Made by a program: the position numbers and the translations under genes. A stretch of DNA of 64,000 bases from Salminus brasiliensis. Its lineage: Eukaryota > Chordata > Actinopteri > Characiformes > Bryconidae. Shown piece by piece: positions 336 to 64,000 of this stretch. Each line of letters starts with the position of its first letter. Position 1 is the first letter of the stretch. The DNA is taken from assembly GCF_030463535.1 (NCBI RefSeq), contig NC_132878.1, positions 29,200,261-29,264,260 on the forward strand, written 5' to 3'. The notes beneath the pieces are model-generated. The model was given only the letters and a program-made list of their open reading frames with translations, was not told the DNA's origin and did not search any database.

Positions 336-9946
<9,611 letters not shown>

Positions 9947-11779: not shown

Positions 11780-14700
11780 ATGACTCAGTCGGTTGTTGTT
11801 CAAGGTAAGCGAGTTCAGCAGACTGTTAGCTAGCTAGCTAGCCTGGTCACACAGCTTCACGTTCGGCTCCAGTTGTTAAGAATGGTAGCGCTAGCTAATG
11901 TAACGTAGCTTTCACTCCTGATTAGTGTGTTAGTTTAATAACCAGTGTCTCCGGGAATCCCGCGCTGTTGTCTGGTGGAAATTAGCTAGCTAGCTAGTTA
12001 GCACGGCCGTTTGAAACTTTAGTGAAGCTCTGTCGGTTACCATAGCAACAGTGTAACAGCGCTATCAGCAGGGCTGCACTAACTCGAGCTGAAGGGTTTC
12101 AGCGTCTGTTGAGTTTGAGTTTTAGTCTTCGTCCTTTTGTTAAGAGTTTCTTTGCTTCCACTTGTTGCTTTTTCTTGCTGACCGCTGCGCTTATCATAGC
12201 AAAAGACAAAGAGCCTCGCCTGAAGACTGGATTTAAGGAATTTAGATGATGACTAAAGTGTATTAAACTGAACAGCAGCAGCAGCTGTGCTGTGTTGTCA
12301 GTTGAAATGTAAACACTTGTTGTCTGTCGGACTGCACGGTGACCAGTCGTCTTGGGTTGATGTCAGTCAGACAGCGTGGTAACCAGTTGTATTGTCTTGT
12401 CAATCTAACAGTAACAAGCTGTGTAGCATTGCCAGTCCAACAAGGTGGTAAGGTGCGGTGCTGTGTTGTCAGTCAGTCAGTGTTGTAAATAGCTGTGTGG
12501 TGTTGTCAGTCAGTCAGTGTTGTAAATAGCTGCGTGGTGTTGTCAGTCAGTCAGTGTTGTAAATAGCTGTCTGGTGTTGTCAGTCAGACAGTGTTGTAAA
12601 TAGCTGTTTGGTGTTGTCAGTCAGACAGTGTTGTAAATAGCTGTGTGGTGTTGTCAGTCTGACAGTGTTGTAAATAGCTGTGTGGTGTTGTCAGTCAGTC
12701 AGTGTTGTAAATAGCTGTGTGGTGTTGTCAGTCAGTCAGTGTTGTAAATAGCTGTCTGGTGTTGTCAGTCAGACAGTGTTGTAAATAGCTGTGTGGTGTT
12801 GTCAGTCAGACAGTGTTGTAAATAGCTGCGTGGTGTTGTCAGTCAGTCAGTGTTGTAAATAGCTGTGTGGTGTTGTCAGTCAGTCAGTGTTGTAAATAGC
12901 TGTCTGGTGTTGTCAGTCAGACAGTGTTGTAAATAGCTGTTTGGTGTTGTCAGTCAGACAGTGTTGTAAATAGCTGTGTGGTGTTGTCAGTCTGACAGTG
13001 TTGTAAATAGCTGTGTGGTGTTGTCAGTCAGACAGTGTTGTAAATAGCTGTGTGGTGTTGTCAGTCAGTCAGTGTTGTAAATAGCTGTCTGGTGTTGTCA
13101 GTCAGACAGTGTTGTAAATAGCTGTGTGGTGTTGTCAGTCAGACAGTGTTGTAAATAGCTGCGTGGTGTTGTTAGTTAGACAGTGTTGTAAATAGCTGTG
13201 TGGTGTTGTCAGTCAGACAGTGTTGTAAATAGCTGCGTGGTGTTGTCAGTCAGACAGTGTTGTAAATAGCTGCGTGGCGTTGTCAGTCTGACAGTGTTGT
13301 AAATAGCTGCGTGGTGTTGTCAGTCAGACAGTGTTGTAAATAGCTGTGTGGTGTTGTCAGTCAGACAGTGTTGTAAATAGCTGTGTGGTGTTGTCAGTCA
13401 GACAGTGTTGTAAATAGCTGCGTGGTGTTGTTAGTTAGACAGTGTTGTAAATAGCTGTGTGGTGTTGTCAGTCAGACAGTGTTGTAAATAGCTGTGTGGT
13501 GTTGTCAGTCAGACAGTGTTGTAAATAGCTGCGTGGTGTTGTCAGTCAGACAGTGTTGTAAATAGCTGCGTGGCGTTGTCAGTCTGACAGTGTTGTAAAT
13601 AGCTGCGTGGTGTTGTCAGTCAGACAGTGTTGTAAATAGCTGTGTGGTGTTGTCAGTCAGACAGTGTTGTAAATAGCTGCGTGGTGTTGTTAGTTAGACA
13701 GTGTTGTAAATAGCTGTGTGGTGTTGTCAGTCAGACAGTGTTGTAAATAGCTGTGTGGTGTTGTCAGTCAGACAGTGTTGTAAATAGCTGCGTGGTGTTG
13801 TCAGTCAGACAGTGTTGTAAATAGCTGCGTGGTGTTGTCAGTCAGACAGTGTTGTAAATAGCTGTGTGGTGTTGTCAGTCAGTCAGTGTTGTAAATAGCT
13901 GTCTGGTGTTGTCAGTCAGACAGTGTTGTATATAGCTGCGTGGCGTTGTCAGTCTGACAGTGTTGTAAATAGCTGCGTGGCGTTGTCAGTCTGACAGTGT
14001 TGTAAATAGCTGCGTGGCGTTGTCAGTCAGACAGTGTTGTAAATAGCTGCGTGGCGTTGTCAGTCAGACAGTGTCGTAAATAGCTGCGTGGCGTTGTCAG
14101 TCTGACAGTGTTGTAAATAGCTGCGTGGTGTTGTCAGTCTGACAGTGTTGTAAATAGCTGCGTGGTGTTGTCAGTCTGACAGTGTTGTAAATAGCTGCGT
14201 GGTGTTGTCAGTCTGACAGTGTTGTAAATAGCTGCGTGGTGTTGTCAGTCTGTCAGTGTTGTAAATAGCTGCGTGGTGTTGTCAGTCTGTCAGTGTTGTA
14301 AATAGCTGCGTGGTGTTGTCAGTCTGACAGTGTTGTAAATAGCTGCGTGGTGTTGTCAGTCTGACAGTGTTGTAAATAGCTGCGTGGTGTTGTCAGTCAG
14401 TCAGTGTTGTAAATAGCTGCGTGGTGTTGTCAGTCTGTCAGTGTTGTAAATAGCTGCGTGGTGTTGTCAGTCTGTCAGTGTTGTAAATAGCTGCGTGGTG
14501 TTGTCAGTCTGACAGTGTTGTAAATAGCTGCGTGGTGTTGTCAGTCAGACAGTGTTGTAAATAGCTGCGTGGTGTTGTCAGTCTGACAGTGTTGTAAATA
14601 GCTGCGTGGTGTTGTCAGTCAGACAGTGTTGTAAATAGCTGTGTGGTGTTGTTAGTTAGACAGTGAGGTAGCTAGCTGTGAAGTAATCAGCGAAATTGTA

Positions 14701-16763
14701 ATGTCATTCACACAAGTTCTGTAACTGGCTGCCTTGTGTAGTGTTATCAGTCAGACATTGTGGTAACTAGCTGTGTTGTGTTGATAGTTGGACTGTAACC
14801 ACATGTGTTGTCAGTCAGACAGTGTTGTAAATAGCTGCGTGGCGTTGTCAGCCAGACAGTGTTGTAAATAGCTGCGTGGCGTTGTCAGTCTGACAGTGTT
14901 GTAAATAGCTGTGTGGCGTTGTCAGTCTGACAGTGTTGTAAATAGCTGTGTGGTGTTGTTAGTTAGACAGTGTTATAATTAGCTGTGTGGTGTTGTTAGT
15001 TAGACAGTGTTGTAAATAGCTGTGTTGTGTTGTTAGTTAGACAGTGAGGTAGCTAGCTGTGAAGTAATCAGCGAAATTGTGATGTCATTCACACAAGTTC
15101 TGTAACTGGCTGCCTTGTGTGGTGTTGTCAGTCAGACATTGTGGTAACTAGCTGTGTTGTGTTGTGTTGATAGTTGGACTGTAACCACATGTGTTGTCAG
15201 TCAGACAGTGCAGTAACTAGCTGTGTTGTGTTGTGGTCAGTGTGAGAAACAGGCATTTTTGTCAGGTGAACAGTGCGGTGACTAGTTGTGTTGTTGTCAG
15301 GTGAACAGTGCGGTGACTATCGGTGTGTTGTCAGCTGAACAGTGCGGTGACTAGTTGTGTGTTGTCAGCTGAACAGTGCGGTGACTAGTTGTGTGTTGTT
15401 GTCAGGTGAACTGTGTGGTGACTAGTTGTGTGTTGTTGTCAGGTGAACTGTGCGGTGACTAGTTGTGTGTTGTTGTCAGCTGAACAGTGCGGTGACTAGT
15501 TGTGTGTTGTTGTCAGGTGAACTGTGTGGTGACTAGTTGTGTGTTGTTGTCAGGTGAACTGTGCGGTGACTAGTTGTGTTGTTGTCAGCTGAACAGTAAG
15601 GTAAACAGCATTTTTTGTTGTCAGTTTAGCGGTGCAGTAATGAGCTGTGCTGTGTTGTTGGTCGGACAGTGTGACAACCAGCTGTGTTGACTATCAAATC
15701 GTGTGATGACTCGTGGTGTGTTGTTGGTAGTCGGAGTCAGTAAGGTAAACGGTGGAGTTGTGCTGGTATTTAGACCAGATGTGGTGGTGTTGTCAGCTGG
15801 ACAGTGTACAAATCAAGCCAGGCAGTCAGTGCAGTAATTAGGTATGTTGTGATGCCAGTGAGTGCAGTAACCATCTGTGCTGTGTTGTTGTCAGTTGGAC
15901 AGTGCGGTAACCAGGTAGGCTGCAGGTTCTGGGACCTGGCGCTGAGAGAGCATTCGCATGTCAACAAGGTAAGACACACCCTCGCACACACTACACTACA
16001 CTCATTTCCTGTTCCTGTCTCATAGCAACATAATACAGTCAGAGTTTTGGGAAAACCCTGGAAAAGACCCAGAAACTTAAAAAAAAAAGTAACTATATTG
16101 TAGCACATGACAACAGCTATAAAAAAAAAGTATGATAAAAGTATGAAAAAAAATTAAGCATATTACTTAAAATTAAACAGTATCTTACAGTATCTGTCTC
16201 AAAGTTGGAGGTGGTTGCCAAGCAGTGTAACAGCCAGTGCTTATTTCATGACCACACAGGGATTTTAACAAATTAATAGCTTTAATACATAATAAATGTA
16301 TACTGGGTATTTCTAGAACTCTTTTATTCACAGTAAAATGTTGTTTATACTCCACAGAAAGGAATTTATGACGAGGCGCTGAGCAGCTTCTTTCAGAATG
16401 TAGATCCAAGGTAAAACAAAGCATTTTATTTTTTACAAATGAGTGCATACTTTATTACATATTATTATAATGAATTCTAACTGATTTATCATTCCATAAC
16501 AGTGGAATCAGTGCCTTCATATTTATAAACTGTATTACTGAAGTGAGAAGCTGAGCGCTGTGTTTCTGTAGGAGGAGTGATGGAGGAGGTGGAGGAGCTC
16601 CGGGCAGCAGGATCTCTGGGCTAAGGGCTCGGGTAAATGCTTCTATTTTCCCTGCAACCATGGAGTCTGTAGACTTTTCACAAAGGAAGGGGTACCTCGA
16701 TTGAGAACCATAACACGTACACATACACTGTGTGTTCTAGAAAGCTGCTATATATATATATAT

Positions 16764-16795
<32 letters not shown>

Positions 16796-18900
16796 AGGCC
16801 ACTAAATAGGAGCACATAGTGGGTGTTTCTGATACAGTGACCAGTGTGAGAAAGCACATTTGTAATAAAGGATGCACTGAGTGAAAACACAAGGTCTCAC
16901 TTCCTCTGTCCCTGTTCTGTAGGCGGTGTTGGTGGATATGGAAGAAGGCGTTCTCAGTGAGGTCCTGCAGGGCCCCCTGCGGCAGCTTTTCAGCTCCACT
17001 CAGCTTATTAGTGATGTGTCTGGCTCTGGAAACAACTGGTAAGGAGCACCCCCTGCAGGGCAGATGGTAATTAAGATGAATTGATGATGTCGTAATATAT
17101 ATGTGTGTCTGTGTCAGGGCAGTGGGCCACCACTCCTATGGCAGTGTGTATCGTGAGCAGATAGTGGAACAGGTGCGCAGGGCAGCAGAACAATGCGACT
17201 GCCTCCAGTGCTTCTTCATCATACACTCTATGGGTGGAGGTGAGTGTGCAGTAAAGCAGTAGTTCAGATGAAAAGCCCCCGTGTTACCTAAACTGTAGGG
17301 AGTTAAGGGGGTTCAACTTTGCTTTCATCTCAGTAAAGCTGAAGTCTGAAGTTTTTTTTATTTAATTTTTTTATTCCACTTTAAATAGTCCAGCACTTAG
17401 ATTTGCTGATTCCTTCTTATTTGCCAGCTTGTTGTTGGAATTTGCTGTTCCACCTTAACATATGCAGTAGTTATTTTCAGTGGGTAAGGGTGAGGTGCCA
17501 TAATTTATGCTGATATGCTATGTATGTTTGTTTGTCTTTGTGTGTAGGAACCGGTTCAGGTTTGGGGACACGTGTGTTAAAGCTGCTGGAGGACGAATTC
17601 CCAGAGGTCTGCCGTCTCGTCACTGCAGTCTATCCATCTGCTGAAGATGATGTCATCACATCCCCCTATAACAGTGTCCTAGCCATGAGGGAGCTAACGG
17701 AACACGCAGACTGCGTTCTACCCATAGAGAACCAGGTGTGTGTATGTTTCTGTGTATTAGGTACCTTCTTCCTTTCCTTCTACAGATAGCTGTAATTGAG
17801 AGGTTGCTTTGTCTAGTTCTATAATGGACTGCCTTGGGACTTCTTTTCTTAAGTCTGAACTTACACTGAACACTGAATACTGTGGAAGACGGGACACCAC
17901 AGATACACTGGATACCACAGCAACCTGGTGAAAGTGATACAATGTTAATGGGGCTGTTAGGGTCAGTGAAAGCAGTAGATCTGCTCTACTGCTGTGGAGC
18001 GAGCTGAGTCTAGTAAGGGAAAGTGAAGCATTTTACTATTTAATCACTTACTCACTATTTTTACAGTATTTTGGTTAAATATCCCTCAGGATTGGTTCAA
18101 AATCCTGTTATATCAGTGCAGTGCTAACAGTGTTATCCACCTGTAAGTACAATTATTCAATTATATTTAGAATTGATCTGCTGTTTTTAACAGTTTTTAA
18201 AGTTTGTAAAAATTATTACTGGTGTTTTGGTTGTTTTGTCTCCCAACTGCAGTCTCTGATGGACATTGTGAGTAAAATTCAGCACATGGCTCACACTGGA
18301 AAACCAGGGAGTGTGATAAAGAAGGACAGTACCATCATCTCCGGGCAGGGGGGCGTGTCCAAGACCGAGAAACCCTTTGATGCCATGAACAACATTGTGG
18401 CCAACCTTCTGCTCAACATTACCAGGTAGCTAACATGTAAGCTTATACCTCACCAATTAGCACTGGGACTACAGGGAAAATGTAGCTAACATGTAATGGA
18501 AGCTTATACCCAGTTAGCACTAGAGCTACAAGATACTCCTCAAAGCATGTGGAGCTGTTAATGAATCTCTAATAATGAATACAGTGTTTGTTTGTTTTGA
18601 ATGTTTGTTATTGGGTTGCAGCTCTGCACGGTTTGAAGGTTCTCTCAACATGGACCTGAACGAGATCGCGATGAATCTCGTACCATTTCCACGGTTACAC
18701 TACCTGGTGTCCAGCCTTACTCCCCTGTATACACTGGCAGATGTTAATATACCCACTCGCAGGTACTCAACTTTTTTTGCCATACTGAGAACTAAAACAA
18801 ATACGTGTAGTGTTATTCAGTCATTTAATAATTGTGTCAATGGAAGGTCCCCACAAGTGTGTGTCTGTGTGTGTCTGTGTGTGTCTGTGTGTGTCTGTGT

Positions 18901-18952
<52 letters not shown>

Positions 18953-20304
18953 AGGCTGGATCAGATGTTCACTGATGCGTTCAGTAAGGATCACCAGCTA
19001 ATGAGAGCTGACCCTAAACACAACCTGTATCTTGCCTGTGCTCTAATGCTGAGGGGCAACGTCCAGCTTTCTGACCTCCGCCGGAACATTGAGAGGTTAC
19101 TGTCCTCTTCTCTTTTCCTTTAATCTCTTCTCTCGTAAGTCCCGGATATTCTGTAGGAACTCTCTCTCTCTCTGTGTCTCTCACTCAGACTGAGGCCGAC
19201 TCTGTCGTTTGTTCAGTGGAACACTGAAGGATGGAAGACTGGTCTGTGTTCAGTTCCTCCGGTTGGTCACACACACTCTCTGCTGGCTCTGGCTAATAAC
19301 ACCTGTGTCAAGCCTTCCTTTATGGATCTCAGGGAGCGCTTCGTTCGACTTTACCGCAAAAAGGTACATGGCATGTAATGTAGGTAGATGTAGGTACAGT
19401 CGTATGCAAAGTTTGGACACCCCTGGCGAAATGAGAAATGAAATGTTGAAATATGTTAAATAAGCTTAAATATGATATTTTTCTGTACATTTTGCACACG
19501 GTTTGTATTTATTTACTGCCTTTGCAACAGATTAGAGTCACAGCTGAAAATGTGACATGAAATATGCCATTATTAACAGATTTTATGTTGAAATTCAGTA
19601 CTTAAACAGCAACAGTGCAAAAGTGTGTCCCTGTAGAGAATGTGACCTATTTACACTTTGAAAATCAATAAATACGTGTAAACTGAGATGCCCAAAACAT
19701 TTGCATAAGACTGTATGCAGTTATGGTCAGAAGTTTACATACACTCATCATGTACATTAGTGTCATGGCAATATTTAGCTATTAGTGATATATTTGAATC
19801 ATTCTTTTTCTGGGACAGAATGAGTGAGAATGGAATTCTATCTTTAATAGAAATTGGTGTGCAAGTATTTAAATATCTCTTAGCATGTTGTACCTAGACT
19901 AGATACTTTTGGTAGTCATCAGCAAGCTTCTGGCAGAATTCGAATTGTATATGATCACTCTTTTTGGCAGAATGGGCAGAATTCATGGTGTTTCTAATAA
20001 AGTGGCCAGTGCATAGAAGCACAAGGTGTTTCTAATGCAGTTAGAGTCAGTTAGCCAGTGAGTAGGAGCTTGAGGTAGGTGTTTCTAATAAAATGCTGAC
20101 AGTTCACTGAACCCTTAATAACAGCTTTTTTTGTGTGTTCTATAGGCTCACCTGCATCACTACCTAGGTGTGGACGGGATGGATGTGTCTGGTTTCAGTG
20201 AGGCTCTGAGCTCTCTCTCTGCTCTTATAGACGAGTACAGCCAGCTGGACTCTACCAAAACAGCTCCCACTCAGGAGCCCCCCCGACTGAACATCGCCTG
20301 CTAA
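11780..20304 (+). CDS. tube1: Tubulin epsilon chain (complete, 12 exons)
   Basis: Centrosomal tubulin needed for stable triplet microtubules in centrioles and basal bodies. It acts with delta-tubulin. Exons: 11780-11804, 15895-15968, 16358-16410, 16572-16632, 16923-17038, 17118-17239, 17548-17735, 18253-18425, 18622-18762, 18955-19095, 19189-19363, 20146-20304. They sum to 1428 nt (475 residues plus stop), the same length as human TUBE1. N-terminus MTQSVVVQ-VGQCGNQ carries the tubulin nucleotide-binding GQCGNQ. The tubulin signature GGGTGSGLG is split by intron 6. AMNNIVANLLLN, ARFEGSLNMDLNEI and DLRRNIERL are epsilon-type blocks. A glycine-rich stretch in exon 4 (SDGGGGGAPGS) differs from mammals. 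Intron 1 is filled with a 37-bp tandem repeat. The neighbours match human 6q21. Confidence 0.97.
12330..15894 (+). repeat. 37-bp minisatellite filling tube1 intron 1, related to the exon 2 splice junction
   Basis: The core, about 12460-14680, holds roughly 60 near-identical units of 37 bp (pattern TGGTGTTGTCAGTCAGACAG then TGTTGTAAATAGCTG). Copies marked by GTTAGTTAGA at 13171, 13430 and 13689 are spaced exactly 259 bp apart (7 units), a higher-order repeat. A 170-bp block starting at 14651 is repeated at 15032. From about 15255 to 15600 a variant unit (GTCAGCTGAACAGTGCGGTG) dominates, and diverged units continue to the exon 2 acceptor. The acceptor with the first exon 2 bases (GTCAG|TTGGACAGTGCGGTAAC) aligns with the unit. 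TGCG/TGTG variation between units looks like CpG decay. Confidence 0.95.
15895..15968 (+). CDS. tube1: tube1 exon 2
   Basis: Encodes VGQCGNQVGCRFWDLALREHSHVNK, the tubulin N-terminal nucleotide-binding strand and helix. The upstream acceptor is TG-rich (GTGCTGTGTTGTTGTCAG) with few C residues. The first 20 or so bases of the exon resemble the intron 1 repeat unit, so the functional acceptor is preceded by dozens of look-alikes. Confidence 0.95.
16750..16794. repeat. TA/GATA microsatellite in tube1 intron 4
   Basis: TA repeats run directly into about seven GATA units. Just downstream (about 16800-16850) is a fragment similar to the inverted form of the lama4 42-bp unit (GTGGGTGTTTCTGATACAGT). 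Confidence 0.85.
18858..18951 (+). repeat. TG microsatellite at the tube1 exon 10 acceptor
   Basis: About 45 TG units with CTG interruptions in the first half end at TTTAG, the acceptor of the exon at 18955. This intron has almost no other pyrimidine tract. Confidence 0.9.
19397..19713. mobile_element. Tc1/mariner-type MITE (317 bp) in tube1 intron 11
   Basis: Left end CAGTCGTATGCAAAGTTT and the inverted right end (AAACATTTGCATAAGACTG) match. TA flanks both sides (19395-19396, 19714-19715). It has no coding capacity. The size and TA target point to a deletion derivative of a Tc1-like element. Confidence 0.82.
19718..19915 (+). mobile_element. Fragment of a Tc1-type terminal repeat
   Basis: CAGTTATGGTCAGAAGTTTA followed by CATACACTCATC resembles the outer end of Sleeping Beauty-like Tc1 elements. 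No opposite end is seen, so it is a solo or truncated end inserted beside the MITE at 19397-19713. Confidence 0.6.
19985..20095 (-). repeat. Dispersed repeat related to the lama4 42-bp minisatellite unit
   Basis: GGTGTTTCTAATAAAGTGGC appears with partial repeats (GGTGTTTCTAATGCAGTTAG, GGTGTTTCTAATAAAATGC). This is the reverse complement of the unit amplified at 7605-8062. Confidence 0.7.
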
Positions 20305-20715: not shown

Positions 20716-21060
20716 CAAGTAAAATCAGGTGTTTTTGAGAATTGACTTGTATATATGTTTTATATATGTATATATACGTATATATGTTTTAATGTTGTCT
20801 TTTGTGTAAACACTGATTCATCATACTACACTCTTTAAAACCTGTTTAAACAAAAAAGTTGAAGAAATGAAGAAATACAATTTGTAGAGTCACTCTATGG
20901 AGAGTCACTCTAAGTCTAGATTTTGTGTTTTATACAGTATAATAAAAAATGAATCTGTGTTTTCAATGGTTAAGCAGTTGGTAATGTATAAAAAAACATT
21001 AAAACCTTCATAGGTTTGAAAGTACTATTAGACAATTATTAGTTTTATGTATATTAGTTC

Positions 21061-21308
21061 TAGTAATATTAATATTCAGAATGAAGCTCTAATAGTATTA
21101 ATATCCAGAATGAAGTTCATTAATATCCAGAATAAAGCTCTAATAACATTAATATCCAGAATGAAGTTCTAATAACATTAATATCCAGAATGAAGCTCTA
21201 ATATCATTAATATCCAGAATGAAGTTCTAATATCATTAATATTCAGACTGAAACTCTAATGACATTATTATCCAGAATGAAGCTCTAATAACATTAAAAT
21301 CCGGAATA
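21061..21308 (-). repeat. Small array of the ccn6 intron satellite, in opposite orientation
   Basis: About nine diverged copies of ATTAATATCCAGAATGAAGC with TCTAATAACATT. This is the reverse complement of the unit filling 23930-33875 (GAGCTTCATTCTGGATATTA). It lies between tube1 and ccn6, about 2 kb beyond the ccn6 stop. Confidence 0.92.
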
Positions 21309-23670: not shown

Positions 23671-26600
23671 CTGTAAGAGAAAAAGAGAATCGGTAGCTCT
23701 CTATCCACTCTGCCCTCAATCCTAAAACCCAGTGAAGTTTACATGTGCAAACTCATCAAACATCAAACTGACTAAAGCTAGAACTAGGAAACATCAGCCT
23801 GCTTTCCAACACTTTACCAACAGACTCAATTCATGACTAATCAAACATCAGGACACTTCTCACTGGATAACAGCTAGCCGACATTAGCAGCACAGTGCTA
23901 AACACTGACACATGCTCCTCACCTATTACAACTAGATTTAATTCTGGATATTAATGAACTTAATTCTGGATCTTAATGTTATTAGAGCTTCATTCTGGAT
24001 ATTAATGAACTTAATTCTGGATATTAATGTTATTAGAGCTTCATTCTGGATATTAATGTTATTAGAGCTTCATTCTGGATATTAATGAACTTAATTCTGG
24101 ATATTAATGTTATTAGAGCTTCATTCTGGATATTAATGTTATTAGAGCTTCATTCTGGATATTAATGATATTAGAGCTTCATTCTGGATATTAATGTTAT
24201 TAGAGCTTCATTCTTGATATTAATGTTATTAGAGCTTCATTCTGGATATTAATGTTATTAGAGCTTCATTCTTGATATTAATGTTATTAGAGCTTCATTC
24301 TGGATATTAATGTTATTAGAACTTCATTCTGGATATTAATGATATTAGAGCTTCATTCTGGATATTAATGTGATTAGAACTTCATTCTGGGTATTAATGA
24401 TATTAGAGTTTCATTCTGGATATTTATGATATTAGAGCTACATTCTGTACATTAATGTTATTAGAACTTCAATCTGGATATTAATGTTATTAGAACTTCA
24501 TTCTGGATATTAATGTTATTAATGAACTTAATTCTGGATATTTATGATATTAGAACTTCATTCTGGATATTAATGTTATTAATGAACTTAATTCTGGATA
24601 TTTATGATATTAGAGCTTCATTCTTGATATTAATGTTATTAGAACTTCAATCTGGATATTAATGTTATTAGAACTTCATTCTGGATATTAATGTTATTAG
24701 AGCTTCATTCTGGATATTAATGATATTAGAGTTTCAATCTGGATATTAATGTTATTACTGAACTTCAATTTTGGATATTAATGTTATTAATTAGCTTCAT
24801 TCTGGATATTAATGATATTAGAGTTTCAATCTGGATATTAATGTTATTACTGAACTTCAATTTTGGATATTAATGTTATTAATTAGCTTCATTCTGGATA
24901 TTAATGTTATTAGAGCTTCATTCTGGATATTAATGATATTAGAGCTTCATTCTGGATATTATTGTTATTAGAACTTCAATCTGGATATTAATGTTATTAG
25001 AACTTCATTCTGGATATTAATGTTATTAGAGCTTCATTCTGGATATTAATGTTATTAATGAACTTCATTCTGGATATTAATGACATTAGAACTTCATTCT
25101 GGATATTAATGTTATTAGAGCTTCATTCTGGATATTAATGAACTTAATTCTGGATATTAATGTTATTAGAGCTTCATTCTGGATATTAATGATATTAGAG
25201 TTTCATTCTGGATATTAATGTTATTAATGAACTTTATTCTGGATATTAATGATATTAGAACTTCATTCTGGATATTAATGTTATTAATGAACTTCATTCT
25301 GGATATTAATGACATTAGAACTTCATTCTGGATATTAATGTTATTAGAGCTTCATTCTGGATATTAATTAGCTTCATTCTGGATATTAATGTTATTAGAG
25401 CTTCATTCTGGATATTAATGATATTAGAGCTTCATTCTGGATATTATTGTTATTAGAACTTCAATCTGGATATTAATGTTATTAGAACTTCATTCTGGAT
25501 ATTAATGTTATTAGAGCTTCATTCTGGATATTAATGATATTAGAGTTTCATTCTGGATATTAATGTTATTAATGAACTTCATTCTGGATATTAATGTTAT
25601 TAGAGCTTCATTCTGGATATTAATGAACTTAATTCTGGATATTAATGTTATTAGAGCTTCATTCTGGATATTAATGATATTAGAGTTTCATTCTGGATAT
25701 TAATGTTATTAATGAACTTTATTCTGGATATTAATGATATTAGAACTTCATTCTGGATATTAATGTTATTAGAACTTCATTCTGGATATTAATGTTATTA
25801 GAGCTTCATTCTGGATATTAATGAACTTAATTCTGGATATTAATGTTATTAGAGCTTCATTCTGGATATTAATGATATTAGAGTTTCATTCTGGATATTA
25901 ATGTTATTAATGAACTTTATTCTGGATATTAATGATATTAGAACTTCATTCTGGATATTAATGTTATTAATGAACTTCATTCTGGATATTAATGACATTA
26001 GAACTTCATTCTGGATATTAATGTTATTAGAGCTTCATTCTGGATATTAATGTTATTAATTCTGGATATTAATGTTATTAGAGCTTCATTCTGGATATTA
26101 ATGATATTAGAGTTTCATTCTGGATATTAATGTTATTAATGAACTTTATTCTGGATATTAATGATATTAGAACTTCATTCTGGATATTAATGTTATTAGA
26201 GCTTCATTCTGGATATTAATGTTATTAGAGCTTCATTCTGGATATTAATGAACTTAATTCTGGATATTAATGTTATTAGAGCTTCATTCTGGATATTAAT
26301 GTTATTAGAGCTTCATTCTGGACATTAATGTGATTAGAACTTCATTCTGGGTATTAATGATATTAGAGTTTCATTCTGGATATTAATGTTATTAATGAAC
26401 TTCATTCTGGATATTAATGATATTAGAACTTCATTCTGGATATTAATGTTATTAAAGCTTCATTCTAGATATTAATGTTATTAGAGCTTCATTCTGGATA
26501 TTAATGTTATTAGAGCTTCATTCTGGATATTAATGAACTTAATTCTGGATATTAATGTTATTAGAGCTTCATTCTGGATATTAATGAACTTAATTCTGGA

Positions 26601-29600
26601 TATTAATGTTATTAGAGCTTCATTCTGGATATTAATGTTATTAGAGCTTCATTCTGGATATTAATGATATTAGAGCTTAATTCTGGATATTAATGTTATT
26701 AGAGCTTCATTCTGGATATTAATGTTATTAGAACTTCATTCTGGATATTAATGTTATTAGAGCTTCATTCTGGATATTAATGTTATTAGAGCTTCATTCT
26801 GGATATTAATGAACTTAATTCTGGATATTAATGTTATTAGAACTTCATTCTGGATATTAATGTTATTAGAGCTTCATTCTGGATATTAATGATATTAGAG
26901 TTTCATTCTGGATATTAATGTTATTAATGAACTTCATTCTGGATATTAATGTTATTAATGAGCTTCATTCTGGATAATAATGTTATTAGAGCTTCATTCT
27001 GGATATTATTGATATTAGAGCTTCATTCTGGATAATAATGTTATTAGAACTTCAATCTGGATATTAATGTTATTAGAACTTCATTCTGGATATTAATGTT
27101 ATTAGAGCTTCATTCTGGATATTAATGATATTAGAGTTTCATTCTGGATATTAATGTTATTAATGAACTTCATTCTGGATATTAATGATATTAGAACTTC
27201 ATTCTGGATATTAATGTTATTAAAGCTTCATTCTAGATATTAATGTTATTAGAGCTTCATTCTGGATATTAATGTTATTAGAGCTTCATTCTGGATATTA
27301 ATGAACTTAATTCTGGATATTAATGTTATTAGAGCTTTATTCTGGATATTAATGATATTAGAGTTTCATTCTGGATATTAATGTTATTAGAGCTTCATTC
27401 TGGATATTAATGATATTAGAGTTTCATTCTGGATACTAATGTTATTAGAACTTCAATCTGGATATTAATGTTATTAGAACTTAATTCTGGATATTAATGT
27501 TATTAGAGCTTCATTCTGGATATTAATGTTATTAGAGCTTCATTCTGGATATTAATGATATTAGAGCTTCATTCTGGATATTAATGTTATTAGAACTTCA
27601 TTCTGGATATTAATGTTATTAGAGCTTCATTCTGGATATTAATGATATTAGAGTTTCATTCTGGATATTAATGTTATTAATGAACTTCATTCTGGGTATT
27701 AATGATATTAGAGTTTCATTCTGGATATTAATGTTATTAATGAACTTCATTCTGGATATTTATGATATTAGAGCTTCATTCTGGACATTAATGTTATTAG
27801 AACTTCATTCTGGATATTAATGTTATTAGAACTTCAATCTGGATATTAATGTTATTAGAACTTCATTCTGGATATTAATGTTATTAGAGTTTCATTCTGG
27901 ATATTAATGTTATTAGAGCTTCATTCTGGATATTAATGATATTAGAGCTTCATTCTGGATATTAATGAACTCAATTCTGGATATTAATGTTATTAGAGCT
28001 TCATTCTGGATATTAATGTTATTAGAGCTTCATTCTGGATATTAATGAACTTAATTCTGGATATTAATGTTATTAGAGCTTCATTCTGGATATTAATGTT
28101 ATTAGAGCTTCATTCTGGATATTAATGATATTAGAGCTTCATTCTGGATATTAATGTTATTAGAGCTTCATTCTTGATATTAATGTTATTAGAGCTTCAT
28201 TCTGGATATTAATGTTATTAGAGCTTCATTCTTGATATTAATGTTATTAGAGCTTCATTCTGGATATTAATGTTATTAGAACTTCATTCTGGATATTAAT
28301 GTTATTAGAGCTTCATTCTGGATATTAATGATATTAGAGTTTCATTCTGGATATTAATGTTATTAATGAACTTCATTCTGGATATTAATGATATTAGAAC
28401 TTCATTCTGGATATTAATGTTATTAAAGCTTCATTCTAGATATTAATGTTATTAGAGCTTCATTCTGGATATTAATGTTATTAGAGCTTCATTCTGGATA
28501 TTAATGAACTTAATTCTGGATATTAATGTTATTAGAGCTTTATTCTGGATATTAATGATATTAGAGTTTCATTCTGGATATTAATGTTATTAGAGCTTCA
28601 TTCTGGATATTAATGATATTAGAGTTTCATTCTGGATACTAATGTTATTAGAACTTCAATCTGGATATTAATGTTATTAGAACTTAATTCTGGATATTAA
28701 TGTTATTAGAGCTTCATTCTGGATATTAATGTTATTAGAGCTTCATTCTGGATATTAATGATATTAGAGCTTCATTCTGGATATTAATGTTATTAGAACT
28801 TCATTCTGGATATTAATGTTATTAGAGCTTCATTCTGGATATTAATGATATTAGAGTTTCATTCTGGATATTAATGTTATTAATGAACTTCATTCTGGGT
28901 ATTAATGATATTAGAGTTTCATTCTGGATATTAATGTTATTAATGAACTTCATTCTGGATATTTATGATATTAGAGCTTCATTCTGGACATTAATGTTAT
29001 TAGAACTTCATTCTGGATATTAATGTTATTAGAACTTCAATCTGGATATTAATGTTATTAGAACTTCATTCTGGATATTAATGTTATTAGAGTTTCATTC
29101 TGGATATTAATGTTATTAGAGCTTCATTCTGGATATTAATGATATTAGAGCTTCATTCTGGATATTAATGAACTCAATTCTGGATATTAATGTTATTAGA
29201 GCTTCATTCTGGATATTAATGTTATTAGAGCTTCATTCTGGATATTAATGAACTTAATTCTGGATATTAATGTTATTAGAGCTTCATTCTGGATATTAAT
29301 GTTATTAGAGCTTCATTCTGGATATTAATGATATTAGAGCTTCATTCTGGATATTAATGTTATTAGAGCTTCATTCTTGATATTAATGTTATTAGAGCTT
29401 CATTCTGGATATTAATGTTATTAGAGCTTCATTCTTGATATTAATGTTATTAGAGCTTCATTCTGGATATTAATGTTATTAGAACTTCATTCTGGATATT
29501 AATGATATTAGAGCTTCATTCTGGATATTAATGTGATTAGAACTTCATTCTGGGTATTAATGATATTAGAGTTTCATTCTGGATATTTATGATATTAGAG

Positions 29601-32600
29601 CTACATTCTGTACATTAATGTTATTAGAACTTCAATCTGGATATTAATGTTATTAGAACTTCATTCTGGATATTAATGTTATTAATGAACTTAATTCTGG
29701 ATATTTATGATATTAGAACTTCATTCTGGATATTAATGTTATTAATGAACTTAATTCTGGATATTTATGATATTAGAGCTTCATTCTTGATATTAATGTT
29801 ATTAGAACTTCAATCTGGATATTAATGTTATTAGAACTTCATTCTGGATATTAATGTTATTAGAGCTTCATTCTGGATATTAATGATATTAGAGTTTCAA
29901 TCTGGATATTAATGTTATTACTGAACTTCAATTTTGGATATTAATGTTATTAATTAGCTTCATTCTGGATATTAATGATATTAGAGTTTCAATCTGGATA
30001 TTAATGTTATTACTGAACTTCAATTTTGGATATTAATGTTATTAATTAGCTTCATTCTGGATATTAATGTTATTAGAGCTTCATTCTGGATATTAATGAT
30101 ATTAGAGCTTCATTCTGGATATTATTGTTATTAGAACTTCAATCTGGATATTAATGTTATTAGAACTTCATTCTGGATATTAATGTTATTAGAGCTTCAT
30201 TCTGGATATTAATGTTATTAATGAACTTCATTCTGGATATTAATGACATTAGAACTTCATTCTGGATATTAATGTTATTAGAGCTTCATTCTGGATATTA
30301 ATGAACTTAATTCTGGATATTAATGTTATTAGAGCTTCATTCTGGATATTAATGATATTAGAGTTTCATTCTGGATATTAATGTTATTAATGAACTTTAT
30401 TCTGGATATTAATGATATTAGAACTTCATTCTGGATATTAATGTTATTAATGAACTTCATTCTGGATATTAATGACATTAGAACTTCATTCTGGATATTA
30501 ATGTTATTAGAGCTTCATTCTGGATATTAATTAGCTTCATTCTGGATATTAATGTTATTAGAGCTTCATTCTGGATATTAATGATATTAGAGCTTCATTC
30601 TGGATATTATTGTTATTAGAACTTCAATCTGGATATTAATGTTATTAGAACTTCATTCTGGATATTAATGTTATTAGAGCTTCATTCTGGATATTAATGA
30701 TATTAGAGTTTCATTCTGGATATTAATGTTATTAATGAACTTCATTCTGGATATTAATGTTATTAGAGCTTCATTCTGGATATTAATGAACTTAATTCTG
30801 GATATTAATGTTATTAGAGCTTCATTCTGGATATTAATGATATTAGAGTTTCATTCTGGATATTAATGTTATTAATGAACTTTATTCTGGATATTAATGA
30901 TATTAGAACTTCATTCTGGATATTAATGTTATTAGAACTTCATTCTGGATATTAATGTTATTAGAGCTTCATTCTGGATATTAATGAACTTAATTCTGGA
31001 TATTAATGTTATTAGAGCTTCATTCTGGATATTAATGATATTAGAGTTTCATTCTGGATATTAATGTTATTAATGAACTTTATTCTGGATATTAATGATA
31101 TTAGAACTTCATTCTGGATATTAATGTTATTAATGAACTTCATTCTGGATATTAATGACATTAGAACTTCATTCTGGATATTAATGTTATTAGAGCTTCA
31201 TTCTGGATATTAATGTTATTAATTCTGGATATTAATGTTATTAGAGCTTCATTCTGGATATTAATGATATTAGAGTTTCATTCTGGATATTAATGTTATT
31301 AATGAACTTTATTCTGGATATTAATGATATTAGAACTTCATTCTGGATATTAATGTTATTAGAGCTTCATTCTGGATATTAATGTTATTAGAGCTTCATT
31401 CTGGATATTAATGAACTTAATTCTGGATATTAATGTTATTAGAGCTTCATTCTGGATATTAATGTTATTAGAGCTTCATTCTGGACATTAATGTGATTAG
31501 AACTTCATTCTGGGTATTAATGATATTAGAGTTTCATTCTGGATATTAATGTTATTAATGAACTTCATTCTGGATATTAATGATATTAGAACTTCATTCT
31601 GGATATTAATGTTATTAAAGCTTCATTCTAGATATTAATGTTATTAGAGCTTCATTCTGGATATTAATGTTATTAGAGCTTCATTCTGGATATTAATGAA
31701 CTTAATTCTGGATATTAATGTTATTAGAGCTTCATTCTGGATATTAATGAACTTAATTCTGGATATTAATGTTATTAGAGCTTCATTCTGGATATTAATG
31801 TTATTAGAGCTTCATTCTGGATATTAATGATATTAGAGCTTAATTCTGGATATTAATGTTATTAGAGCTTCATTCTGGATATTAATGTTATTAGAACTTC
31901 ATTCTGGATATTAATGTTATTAGAGCTTCATTCTGGATATTAATGTTATTAGAGCTTCATTCTGGATATTAATGAACTTAATTCTGGATATTAATGTTAT
32001 TAGAACTTCATTCTGGATATTAATGTTATTAGAGCTTCATTCTGGATATTAATGATATTAGAGTTTCATTCTGGATATTAATGTTATTAATGAACTTCAT
32101 TCTGGATATTAATGTTATTAATGAGCTTCATTCTGGATAATAATGTTATTAGAGCTTCATTCTGGATATTATTGATATTAGAGCTTCATTCTGGATAATA
32201 ATGTTATTAGAACTTCAATCTGGATATTAATGTTATTAGAACTTCATTCTGGATATTAATGTTATTAGAGCTTCATTCTGGATATTAATGATATTAGAGT
32301 TTCATTCTGGATATTAATGTTATTAATGAACTTCATTCTGGATATTAATGATATTAGAACTTCATTCTGGATATTAATGTTATTAAAGCTTCATTCTAGA
32401 TATTAATGTTATTAGAGCTTCATTCTGGATATTAATGTTATTAGAGCTTCATTCTGGATATTAATGAACTTAATTCTGGATATTAATGTTATTAGAGCTT
32501 TATTCTGGATATTAATGATATTAGAGTTTCATTCTGGATATTAATGTTATTAGAGCTTCATTCTGGATATTAATGATATTAGAGTTTCATTCTGGATACT

Positions 32601-35600
32601 AATGTTATTAGAACTTCAATCTGGATATTAATGTTATTAGAACTTAATTCTGGATATTAATGTTATTAGAGCTTCATTCTGGATATTAATGTTATTAGAG
32701 CTTCATTCTGGATATTAATGATATTAGAGCTTCATTCTGGATATTAATGTTATTAGAACTTCATTCTGGATATTAATGTTATTAGAGCTTCATTCTGGAT
32801 ATTAATGATATTAGAGTTTCATTCTGGATATTAATGTTATTAATGAACTTCATTCTGGGTATTAATGATATTAGAGTTTCATTCTGGATATTAATGTTAT
32901 TAATGAACTTCATTCTGGATATTTATGATATTAGAGCTTCATTCTGGACATTAATGTTATTAGAACTTCATTCTGGATATTAATGTTATTAGAACTTCAA
33001 TCTGGATATTAATGTTATTAGAACTTCATTCTGGATATTAATGTTATTAGAGTTTCATTCTGGATATTAATGTTATTAGAGCTTCATTCTGGATATTAAT
33101 GATATTAGAGCTTCATTCTGGATATTAATGAACTCAATTCTGGATATTAATGTTATTAGAGCTTCATTCTGGATATTAATGAACTTAATTCTGGATATTA
33201 ATGTTATTAGAGCTTCATTCTGGATATTAATGATATTAGAGCTTCATTCTGGATATTAATGATATTAGAGTTTCATTCTGGATATTAATGTTATTAGAGC
33301 TTCATTCTGGATATTAATGATATTAGAGTTTCATTCTGGATATTAGTGTTATTAGAACTTCAATCTGGATATTAATGTTATTAGAGCTTCATTCTGGATA
33401 TTAATGTTATTAGAACTTCAATCTGGATATTAATGTTATTAGAACTTCATTCTGGATATTAATGTTATTAGAGCTTCATTCTGGATATTTATGATATTAG
33501 AGTTTCATTCTGGTTATTAATGTTATTAATGAACTTCATTCTGGGTATTAATGATATTAGAACTTCATTCTGGATATTAATGTTATTAGAACTTCATTCT
33601 GGATATTAATGTTATTAGAACGTCATTCTGGATATTAATGTTATTAGAACTTCAATCTGGATATTAATGTTATTAGAACTTCATTCTGGATATTAATGTT
33701 ATTAGAGCTTCATTCTGGATATTAATGATATTAGAGTTTCATTCTGGATATTAATGTTATTAGAACTTCATTCTGGATATTAATGTTATTAGAGTTTCAT
33801 TCTGGATATTAATGATATTAGAGTTTCATTCTGGATATTAATGTTATTAATGAACCTCATTCTGGATATTAATGTACTCATGTCAGGCAGCATTATCCAC
33901 CCAGAATATTATGTCATTGTTGTGATGTCATATTCTAGATTACAGGCAAAACAGAACAATTTCAGCTCATCAACACAGGGACCACAGTGGTTGACACACC
34001 GCTGAATGTTCTGCTTTCTGCTACTTTAATAATGTACCTTGATGGTTTTCAGGATCTTTTTGTCACAGGGTCTGAGCAGACACAGCCGCCGCTCCTTTCT
34101 CATTTCACACTTGCCGTTGTCGTTGGAGATGCGGACGGAGATGCCGGTGCCACAGGTCTGAGAGCATGGAGACCAGGATGTGGTCTGCACCAGACAGTTC
34201 TTCTTCCAGGCTAAAGGAGGATCCCTGTAAGCTTGCCATGTTATAGTCACAAAGTCACCACACTCCTCGACAACACACAACATGCTAGCAAGCTAGCATG
34301 TGTAACCTGCGTTACACACTCACTGCACCTTGTATATGGATCATAACCACACATTGTTCACTACCTGTTATCAGCCCAGAAATTCCCCAGAAATGGTCAC
34401 TAGTATAAAGGATTGTCAGAACCCAGACATTGGATTTGCCAATCAGTGTGTAAACAAAGTGTGATAGCCAATTAGAGCGCAACAAGTATGTTAGCTAGTC
34501 AGAGTGGAACGAATTGTGATAGCCAATTAGAGCATAACTGACATTCGCTAGCCAATCAAAGTGTAGCTGACGTGATGTCAAATAAGAGTGTAATTGAGGT
34601 CTAGATATCCATTTAGAGTGTAGCAGACTTGTGATAGCCAATCAGGGGTGAGTTTCCCGATCAACAGGATATGAGGAAAGTGAAATACTCACACACATAT
34701 GACTGCATACGTCAACAAAAATCTAGACTGAATCCATAAATTTAATAAATAAACAAACCTCATTGTTACTATTGGTAGTTACTACAAGAATACTACTAAA
34801 GCTACTAGTTTACATAATATTTAGAGTGACAAAGCTTTTGGGAAACCCCCCAGAGCGAGACTGAAATGTAATCAGCTGCATTCTGACAACTGAAACTCAC
34901 TGGAAAAGCAAAATCACTCTGCATTGCTGGTGAGGTTTCTGTAGTCGTCTCACTGCCAAAGCAGTCTACCTGCCAAGGCAGTCCCCTTGCCAAGGTGGTC
35001 CTCTGGATATCATTAGGTTCTTATAACTTCAGTCAATTGAAAAGACACCACACCAGCCATGCCACTGTGCTTCAGAGTCACGATTCTAAAAATTCTAAAT
35101 TTGTGCTGTGCTTCATGGTAGGTGAAACAGCTTCGATTGAGTAACAGACTTGAGCTGTGTGTGAGTTTCAGCTTCAACATTTGTAGAAAAACGAAAATTC
35201 CTACTCTGTGTCACTGTTTGCTAGTTATATATCATTCCATGTGTTTGTGTATTTGTTCTGTGACACTCTTACCACTTTGAGTGGAGCCTCTGGCACTGAA
35301 ACTCACCTGACATGGTCTTGTAGGTGGTGTCCTGCTGCTTTTTGGCCTGCAGTCCCGCAGGGACGCTGCTCTGCAGCCCGGCCGGACTCATCAGGGCCGC
35401 AGGTTTCTGGACGAACGCCGGCGTGCACCCAATGGCTCCGGCAATGCAGACGCACCTATACAGCGAGCTGGGCTGGAAGGACTGGCCGTTGTCGTAGTGA
35501 GCACCGTTCAGGTCACAGCCAACTGCCATCATATCTGCAGGAGGAGTTCAACAGTTTAAAGGGATAGTTTGGATTGTAAAGGTATGATTGTTATTACTGA

Positions 35601-46144: not shown

Positions 46145-46405
46145 GCTTTTGCATTAAGACTTGGGTTTGGGTTAAGATTAAGGTTAGGTTTAGAGTTAGT
46201 ATAGTTAGGATTAAGGTCAGGTTTAGAGTTAGTATAGTTAGGATTAAGGTTAGGATTAGGGTTAGTATAGTTAGGATTAAGGTTAGGATTAGGGTTAGTA
46301 TAGTTAGAATTAAGGTTAGGTTTAGGGTTAGTATAGTTAGGATTAAGGGTAGGTATAGAGTTAGTATAGTTAGGATTAAGGTTAGGTTTAGGGTTAGTAT
46401 GGCTG
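46145..46405. repeat. 33-bp minisatellite with TTAGGG-like words
   Basis: About seven units of GGATTAAGGTTAGGTTTAGG plus GTTAGTATAGTTA. TTAGGG and TTAGGT occur inside each unit but never in a perfect hexamer run, so it is not a telomeric tract. Confidence 0.88.
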
Positions 46406-62719: not shown

Positions 62720-63165
62720 AGACTAGACTCAGTGGGTTTGTTCTGAAGGACAATTCAGAATGTCATTCAACCTTAACAACCACACACACACACACACACA
62801 CACGTTTAGGCCAGAAACATACTTTACACATGGACGTGAACACAGTTCATAACACAGCGTGAAGCATTCTGATCACTGATGCAGGGGGACGTCACATCTA
62901 CAGCTAAGTCTGGCTGGGCTGTACCTCTCTTGCTAGTACACCTTACTCCAGTCAGTTGCAGCATGCAGTGACTTACAAACACTTGAGTGTGTGCCTGAAG
63001 GGGTCCGGATTAAATATAGGTGAAAGGAGCTAAATAGGTACAGGTGTTTAAAAAAAGTATGTTACTAGTCTTTCAGGCACAATTTCTTCACTTTAGGAAA
63101 ATAGAAGAATGAACTACATAAAACATCACTGAAACACTTACCAGCCAGTTACAGTTACCACTACA
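62720..63165 (+). other. slc22 3' UTR and downstream DNA
   Basis: No gene. CA microsatellite at 62782-62803. ATTAAA at 63009-63014 is a possible weak polyadenylation signal. Confidence 0.45.
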
Positions 63166-63167
63166 GA

Positions 63168-63860
63168 GTACTGTTTGGCTAACATTCTGGCTACTGAGTG
63201 CTAAATAGCTGGTATTCTGGCTACAGAGTACTGTTTGGCTAGCATTCTGGCTACAGAGTACTGTTTGGCTAGTATTCTGGCTACTGAGTACTGTTTGGCT
63301 AGTATTCTGGCTACTGAGTACTAAATAGCTGGTGTTCTGGCTACAGAATACTGTTTGGCTAGCTGTTTGGCTAGCATTCTGGCTACAGAGTACTGTTTGG
63401 CTAGCACTCTGGCTACAGAGTACTGTTTGGCTAGTATTCTGGCTACTGAGTACTGTTTGGCTAGTATTCTGGCTACTGAGTACTGTTTGGCTAGCATTCT
63501 GGCTACAGAGTACTGTTTGGCTAGTATTCAGGCTACTGAGTACTAAATAGCTGGTGTTCTGGCTACAGAATACTGTTTGGCTAGCTGTTTGGCTAGCATT
63601 CTGGCTACAGAGTACTGTTTGGCTAGCATTCTGGCTACAGAGTGCTGATTGGCTAGCATTCTGGCTACAGAGTGCTGATTGGCTAGCATTCTGGCTACAG
63701 AGTACTGTTTGGCTAGCATTCTGGCTACAGAGTGCTGATTGGCTAGCATTCTGGCTACAGAGTGCTGATTGGCTAGCATTCTGGCTACAGAGTGCTGATT
63801 GGCTAGCATTCTGGCAACATAGTACTGTTTGGCTAGCATTCTGGCTACAGAGTGCTAATT
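63168..63860. repeat. 30-bp minisatellite downstream of the slc22 gene
   Basis: About 22 units of GGCTAGCATTCTGGCTACAG plus AGTACTGTTT. A larger block containing CTAAATAGCTGGTGTTCTGG is repeated with 222-bp spacing (63321 and 63543). The 30-bp period keeps several frames open on both strands (up to 295 codons), which are artefacts. Confidence 0.95.
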
Positions 63861-64000
63861 GGCACATTGGGTTCGTTATTTGTGTTTGCACACTTGAGTC
63901 CAGTATGTTTTTGGCCTCACACTTCATTTTAAAGAGCCCATATCTTGCTTTTCTCTTGTCTTTGTGGAAGGACACACAGGGGAATTAAACTCAGTGTATT

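Follow-up and report, generated by a model that had tools for sequence, protein, structure and literature searches.

Intron 1 of a gene that we take to be epsilon-tubulin (tube1) in Salminus brasiliensis is largely occupied by a minisatellite whose units resemble the boundary between that intron and exon 2. It is very probable that this coding splice junction founded the minisatellite, which most likely behaves as ordinary intron. The array lies in a stretch of 64,000 nucleotides of contig NC_132878.1 (the window), part of a genome assembly of 1.07 Gb in 103 contigs. Intron 1 measures 4,090 bp, compared with 79-782 bp for the other ten introns of the gene. In the 12-exon model it separates the coding part of exon 1 (11780..11804, + strand; MTQSVVVQ and the first base of a V codon) from exon 2 (15895..15968, + strand), which has 74 bp, encodes VGQCGNQVGCRFWDLALREHSHVNK, and ends at the donor AAG|GTAAGA. 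The array and the junction are as a preliminary description of this DNA had presented them, with 37-bp units that carry TTGTCAG followed by a copy of the start of exon 2. The likely founder of this minisatellite can be named, being a coding splice junction that is kept fixed by the protein, and a known founder allows the array to be rooted and its growth to be read.

Resemblance of the array to the exon 2 junction

A profile of the repeat unit, built from 79 of 88 anchored units, gave 105 matches in the window at E ≤10. The HMMER inclusion level, an E value of 0.01, was passed by 87 of them, all on the + strand and with the exon 2 junction included, so that besides the junction there are 86 clear array units of approximately 37 bp each. 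Every copy bears the acceptor-like TTGTCAG. When the array was masked, the top match of the profile in the window was the real acceptor junction of exon 2 (15881..15914, + strand; 14 intronic and 20 exonic bases), with an E value of 2.4e-9 compared with 0.67 for the next match. This junction forms the last unit of the array, and the tandem unit itself spans the exon-intron boundary of its host gene. When the intronic half was masked too, the first 20 exon bases still ranked first in the window (E 0.026), in the exact register and ending at 15914.

The exonic half was then compared with shuffled and with genomic sequence. In the fixed register after TTGTCAG, the 88 units match the exonic 20-mer at 13.8 of 20 positions on average. 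No shuffle attained this mean (100,000 mononucleotide and 100,000 dinucleotide shuffles), nor did any of 4,440 YAG-following sites in other places. The maximum in that register (16 matches) was reached by no mononucleotide shuffle, by 15 dinucleotide shuffles, and by one YAG site. The resemblance claimed in the preliminary description therefore withstands alignment against shuffled sequence, and pure chance was rejected as the source of the exonic match on the basis of the fixed-register shuffles and the YAG sites. Without a fixed register, the best ungapped match of the exonic 20-mer anywhere in the array is also 16/20, a score that 7 of 20,000 shuffles and 16 of 19,986 random 20-mers drawn from the sequence outside 11780-16000 attained.

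Seven other tubulin motif sequences from 30 tubulin loci fetched from the same genome, which are distinct and do not all encode the identical peptide, gave means of 8.3-12.6 versus 13.8 for the tube1 exon, so the array fits its own exon better than any of them. A 40-mer across the junction finds an echo of 32/40 in intron 1, compared with at most 21/40 for the other tested junctions in their own introns, a comparison in which intron 5 was too short to test and intron 1 is by far the longest. Furthermore, eight other arrays of the window were compared with the tube1 exons, and seven of them showed no match among the up to six matches listed for each. The remaining one, at 46171, has a weak match to a tube1 exon with an E value of 0.29, compared with 0.077 for a single intron 1 consensus. 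A general tendency of the arrays in this window to resemble tube1 exons was thus not seen.

The host gene

The tube1 model comprises 12 exons on the + strand (11780-20304) with an open frame of 475 aa, and GT and AG are present at all 11 introns as modelled. In a single frame, the protein carries the Pfam domains Tubulin (PF00091, E 1.7e-52) and Tubulin_C (PF03953, E 6.8e-31), and a search of solved structures returned beta-tubulin sequences among the matches listed (best 60 of 174). The host gene is intact, and the array ends at its genuine exon 2 boundary. The length and motifs of the protein resemble human TUBE1, and the 475-aa tubulin gene is presumably epsilon-tubulin. The GQCGNQ motif of exon 2 is highly conserved in tubulins.

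Organization and origin of the array

Tandem Repeats Finder (TRF) assigned a period of 37 bp to 12463-15061 and found related arrays at 15190-15597. With weaker profile matches counted, the array reaches from 12283 to the junction, which corresponds to 88% of intron 1. Its 5' edge (12283..12459, + strand) consists of degenerate units with exon-like bases and holds four profile matches with E values from 0.0031 to 2.1e-9. The homogenised core follows (12466..14648, + strand), in which 59 full 37-bp units show a mean pairwise divergence of 5.3% and the best donor scores -1.7. The core passes into a mixed zone of core-like units and diverged pieces (14649..15258, + strand; TRF and unit list) that lies inside a duplication of about 381 bp, which TRF reported at 14424-15234 with a period of 381 and 2.1 copies. 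This duplication within the array suggests past length instability. The 3' subarray (15259..15597, + strand; TRF and unit list) is made of exon-like units, six of which contain CAG|GTGAAC, where a weak donor (score 3.4 each) immediately adjoins the acceptor. On the right side, the 3' edge (15598..15880, + strand) bridges to the exon 2 junction through degenerate units, with profile matches at 15616, 15643, 15716, 15784, 15818, and 15861 whose E values range from 2.7e-5 to 1.1, three of the six being weaker than 0.05.

Six diagnostic exon positions separate the exon from the core consensus. Exon-like bases occupy 11 of 20 cells in the four units of the 5' edge, 10 of 15 in the three units of the 3' edge, and 43 of 54 in the 3' subarray, compared with 6 of 360 in the core. 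If only cells unlike the core consensus are counted, 21 of 25 are exon-like at the two edges together (seven units) versus 6 of 26 in the core. The edge count has a P value of 2.6e-7 if an exon-like base is expected at a chance of 1/3 and of 0.0095 at a chance of 0.6. The boundary units are spared the homogenisation of the middle. In a FastTree phylogeny of 39 distinct units, the junction sits on a terminal branch of zero length, nearest to the 3' subarray, and most core units are nested deeper when the tree is rooted at the junction. Moreover, the protein constrains the exon bases, which should therefore predate the array. The preliminary description had taken the junction for the likelier ancestor and the array for its copies, and this order is supported by the continuous 37-bp register, by the match of the exonic bases on their own, and by the exon-like edges. 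The junction as founder is the simplest interpretation of these patterns, short of proof.

The array probably started with a tandem duplication of a segment of about 37 bp across the 3' splice site of intron 1, which would have included some 17 intronic bases and the opening 20 bases of the exon 2 coding sequence. The copies would have been freed from coding and would then have drifted. Local rounds of slippage or unequal exchange could have homogenised the middle, while older exon-like copies would have stayed at the ends. The resulting array would most likely be read as ordinary intron, since its core offers no donors for exon definition. The real acceptor would be favored as the last one, being nearest to the good donor of exon 2 and having more pyrimidines than 86 of the 87 decoys.

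Several results weigh against this history. The 5' edge taken alone, where 11 of 14 cells unlike the core consensus are exon-like, gives a P value of 0.00069 at a chance of 1/3 and of 0.12 at a chance of 0.6, the latter not being significant. The edge counts cover seven units only, because the weaker matches of the 3' edge at 15616, 15716, 15818, and 15861 were left out. Over the whole unit of 34 columns, the likeness to the junction is 0.750 for the 5' edge and 0.764 for the core, so that the argument from the edges is carried by the six diagnostic columns. In the tree, the mean distance to the junction is largest for the 5' edge (0.465), followed by the core (0.384) and the 3' subarray (0.246), at least four other units also sit on zero-length branches, and the support on 39 columns is moderate. 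The best ungapped matches of the exonic 20-mer elsewhere in the window are barely lower than the one in the array (14 of 20 on the + strand and 15 of 20 on the - strand). Finally, the fit of the real sequence to the array is attained by 300 of 1,024 synonymous recodings of VGQCGNQ. The likeness is thus carried by positions that the protein fixes and not by codon choice, and codon choice was rejected as evidence of descent. The array resembles what many genes for the VGQCGNQ peptide would show, which is to be expected if it descended from coding DNA.

Decoy acceptors and splicing of intron 1

With search patterns, 87 TTGTCAG-like motifs were found and treated as decoys. Scores of decoy 3' splice sites, as announced in the preliminary description, are hence present if motifs are counted, while the phrase overstates the number of usable sites. 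Spliced to exon 1, all 87 decoys run into a premature stop, and misuse would truncate the protein as had been predicted. The predicted reading V-R-Q-C-C-K-stop applies to 31 of them, and the other 56 read differently and stop within 40 codons past the shared exon 1 part. Such stops are expected in all decoys because the 37-bp unit shifts the frame with each copy and the core has stops in every frame; the early stops were therefore rejected as a sign of selection.

Donor scores, computed with generic donor frequencies, do not exceed -1.7 in the core, below all 11 real tube1 donors (-0.5 to 7.5). As the core has no usable donor, exon definition should skip it. Together with the exon 2 donor, only one of the 87 decoys (15797) would delimit an exon no longer than 300 nt, and six would delimit one no longer than 500 nt. 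At the real site, 11 of 17 bases are pyrimidines, a count that one of the 87 decoys reaches, and the other ten acceptors of the gene have 9-14. The distance to the preceding AG is 27 nt at the real acceptor and 17 nt at 72 of the 87 decoys, with a range of 16-97 nt at the other ten acceptors. In the opposite direction, a matrix derived from these ten acceptors gives 79 of the 87 decoys a score no lower than that of the real site, with the decoys of the 3' subarray scoring highest. Its leave-one-out scores on the real acceptors scatter from -0.7 to 16.2, and the ranking of splice strength by this matrix was rejected as unreliable. The six CAG|GTGAAC donors of the 3' subarray score above six of the 11 real tube1 donors, and these units are predicted to be the likeliest sites of rare misuse or step-wise splicing.

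A motif scan predicts TAAC at 15868..15871 (+ strand) as a candidate branch point of the real acceptor, with its A at 15870, 24 nt upstream. The TAAC sits inside an apparent degenerate copy of the GGTAAC of exon 2 and falls within the weak profile match at 15861-15879 (E 1.1). Branch-point motifs were rejected as a discriminator, being present at 34 of 87 decoys and at five of ten other acceptors. Exon 2 itself contains an internal CAG|GTAGGC (15912-15920) at the end of the array unit, with a donor score of 4.8 compared with 6.8 for the real donor.

Alternative explanations

The preliminary description had proposed that the decoys act as a splicing burden or as a dose control, in which their acceptors would capture exon 1 and direct a share of transcripts that depends on array length to early stops and decay. 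The early stop behind every decoy, the six CAG|GTGAAC donors that exceed more than half of the real ones, and the decoy-favoring acceptor matrix would all agree with it. The stops are foreseeable from the unit alone, however, and the donor-poor core, the near absence of decoys within exon range of the exon 2 donor, and the pyrimidine count that one decoy in 87 attains argue in the opposite direction. The comparable lancelet arrays are likewise reported, in the excerpts of the two papers (PMC3087553, PMC3902484), to leave splicing undisturbed. Taken together, a splicing burden or a role in dosage appears quite unlikely. In a further extension, a length-variable acceptor array derived from the gene's own junction would divert a share of the splices from exon 1, either to dead ends or to step-wise splicing at the CAG|GTGAAC units. 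The number of repeats would then bear on the output of epsilon-tubulin and perhaps on traits of the centriole or sperm tail, a reading that is very unlikely.

It is similarly improbable that the likeness arose by chance or convergence, either because an independent T/G-rich minisatellite came to lie beside exon 2 or because the free bases of the junction were converted towards the array. The small lead of 16/20 over 15/20 for ungapped matches elsewhere in the window speaks for such an origin, and the intronic half adjoins the array and is not independent evidence. The exonic half, on the other hand, ranks first in the exact register with a mean that beats 100,000 shuffles, and the matching bases include protein-fixed ones, which makes it unlikely that the array converted the exon as a whole. 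An assembly artefact, in which repeat copies were collapsed or expanded and the copy number is wrong, is hardly credible at all. A single assembly was examined, and a lancelet globin array of similar kind was apparently misassembled in the draft genome according to its authors, as the excerpt of that paper has it (PMC3087553). Against an artefact, the units differ in an ordered way, their flanks form an intact gene, the 1.07 Gb of the assembly are spread over just 103 contigs, and the junction segment gave a single match when it was searched against them. Founding by the junction, followed by life as ordinary intron, is preferred over all of these.

Relation to known minisatellites

In lancelets, so-called mirages have been described, which are minisatellite-like tandem duplications of exon-intron boundaries. 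According to the excerpts of the two papers, they are hosted by the globin genes BflGb6 and BflGb9, Adh3, and troponin C, with similar repeats in PGBD5, and one globin mirage duplicates the 3' end of an intron together with the 5' part of exon 2 (PMC3087553, PMC3902484). As in tube1, the mirage unit spans the exon-intron boundary, many units keep AG/GT signals, and units at the cluster boundaries escape homogenisation (PMC3087553, PMC3902484). Two haplotypes of the BflGb6 mirage have six and three units of 150-160 bp, and the Adh3 units are quoted at 10-72 bp (PMC3087553, PMC3902484). The tube1 array differs in having 86 units of about 37 bp, in filling 88% of its intron, and in residing in a tubulin gene of a ray-finned fish. 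In the same excerpts, reverse transcription PCR and the Adh3 data suggest that mirages do not interfere with splicing (PMC3087553, PMC3902484). Undisturbed splicing is thus a reported feature of the lancelet mirages and would be a prediction for the tube1 array. On the three features that can be tested (the boundary-spanning unit, the spared edge units, and the intact host gene), the tube1 array would belong to the mirage kind of minisatellite as a large case. It would carry this kind, known from lancelets, over to fish with far more copies. Its scores of sequences that nearly duplicate a real acceptor also provide a natural setting in which to examine how the splicing machinery passes over them. 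Such arrays have been put forward as a source from which new introns could form, as stated in the excerpt (PMC3087553).

Human segmentally duplicated genes are a further vertebrate case with minisatellite repeats at exon-intron boundaries. In the excerpt of that work, these repeats differ in copy number among recent paralogues and can form novel introns (PMC2812944), in contrast to tube1, where one gene and an existing intron are concerned. In fish, intron 1 minisatellites are known from MSTN-2 of Sparus aurata and, by the title of a reference, from growth hormone (PMC3045353). As far as the excerpt goes, the MSTN-2-type repeats are described without units derived from splice junctions, unlike the tube1 array (PMC3045353). 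No fish case of a junction-derived array was recognised in searches of an open-licence library. An exact match of the core unit was not found in a collection of viral contigs, and no tube1 relative was confirmed in the genome and viral contig collections, as expected since both are without fish. The 30 fetched tubulin loci contain three other minisatellites of at least 12 copies, in three loci, which were viewed by eye only.

Other features of the window

Downstream of tube1, an array of about 10 kb consists of a 29-bp AT-rich unit (23959-33875), and this unit recurs in inverted orientation in a 250-bp array (21059-21307) that precedes it by 2.65 kb. A similar-looking 29-bp unit occurs beside a tubulin gene elsewhere in the genome (locus L020, 2840-3264). 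A 42-bp array with 11 copies is located at 7598-8058, and matches to its unit were found on the other strand in tube1 introns 4 (16796-16858) and 11 (19986-20028 and 20049-20096), as from a dispersed element. Moreover, an uninterrupted stop-to-stop frame of 378 aa on the - strand (1452-2585) encodes a Tc1-like transposase with Sleeping Beauty-type helix-turn-helix, Tc3-type, and DDE_3 domains, and a frame near tube1 carries an IGFBP domain and was read as CCN-like. The latter frame and the transposase would fit a ray-finned fish. At 63091-63984 (- strand), a 30-bp array is open over a frame of 298 codons that encodes repeats of ten residues (CSQNASQSAL type), probably because the unit length is divisible by 3.

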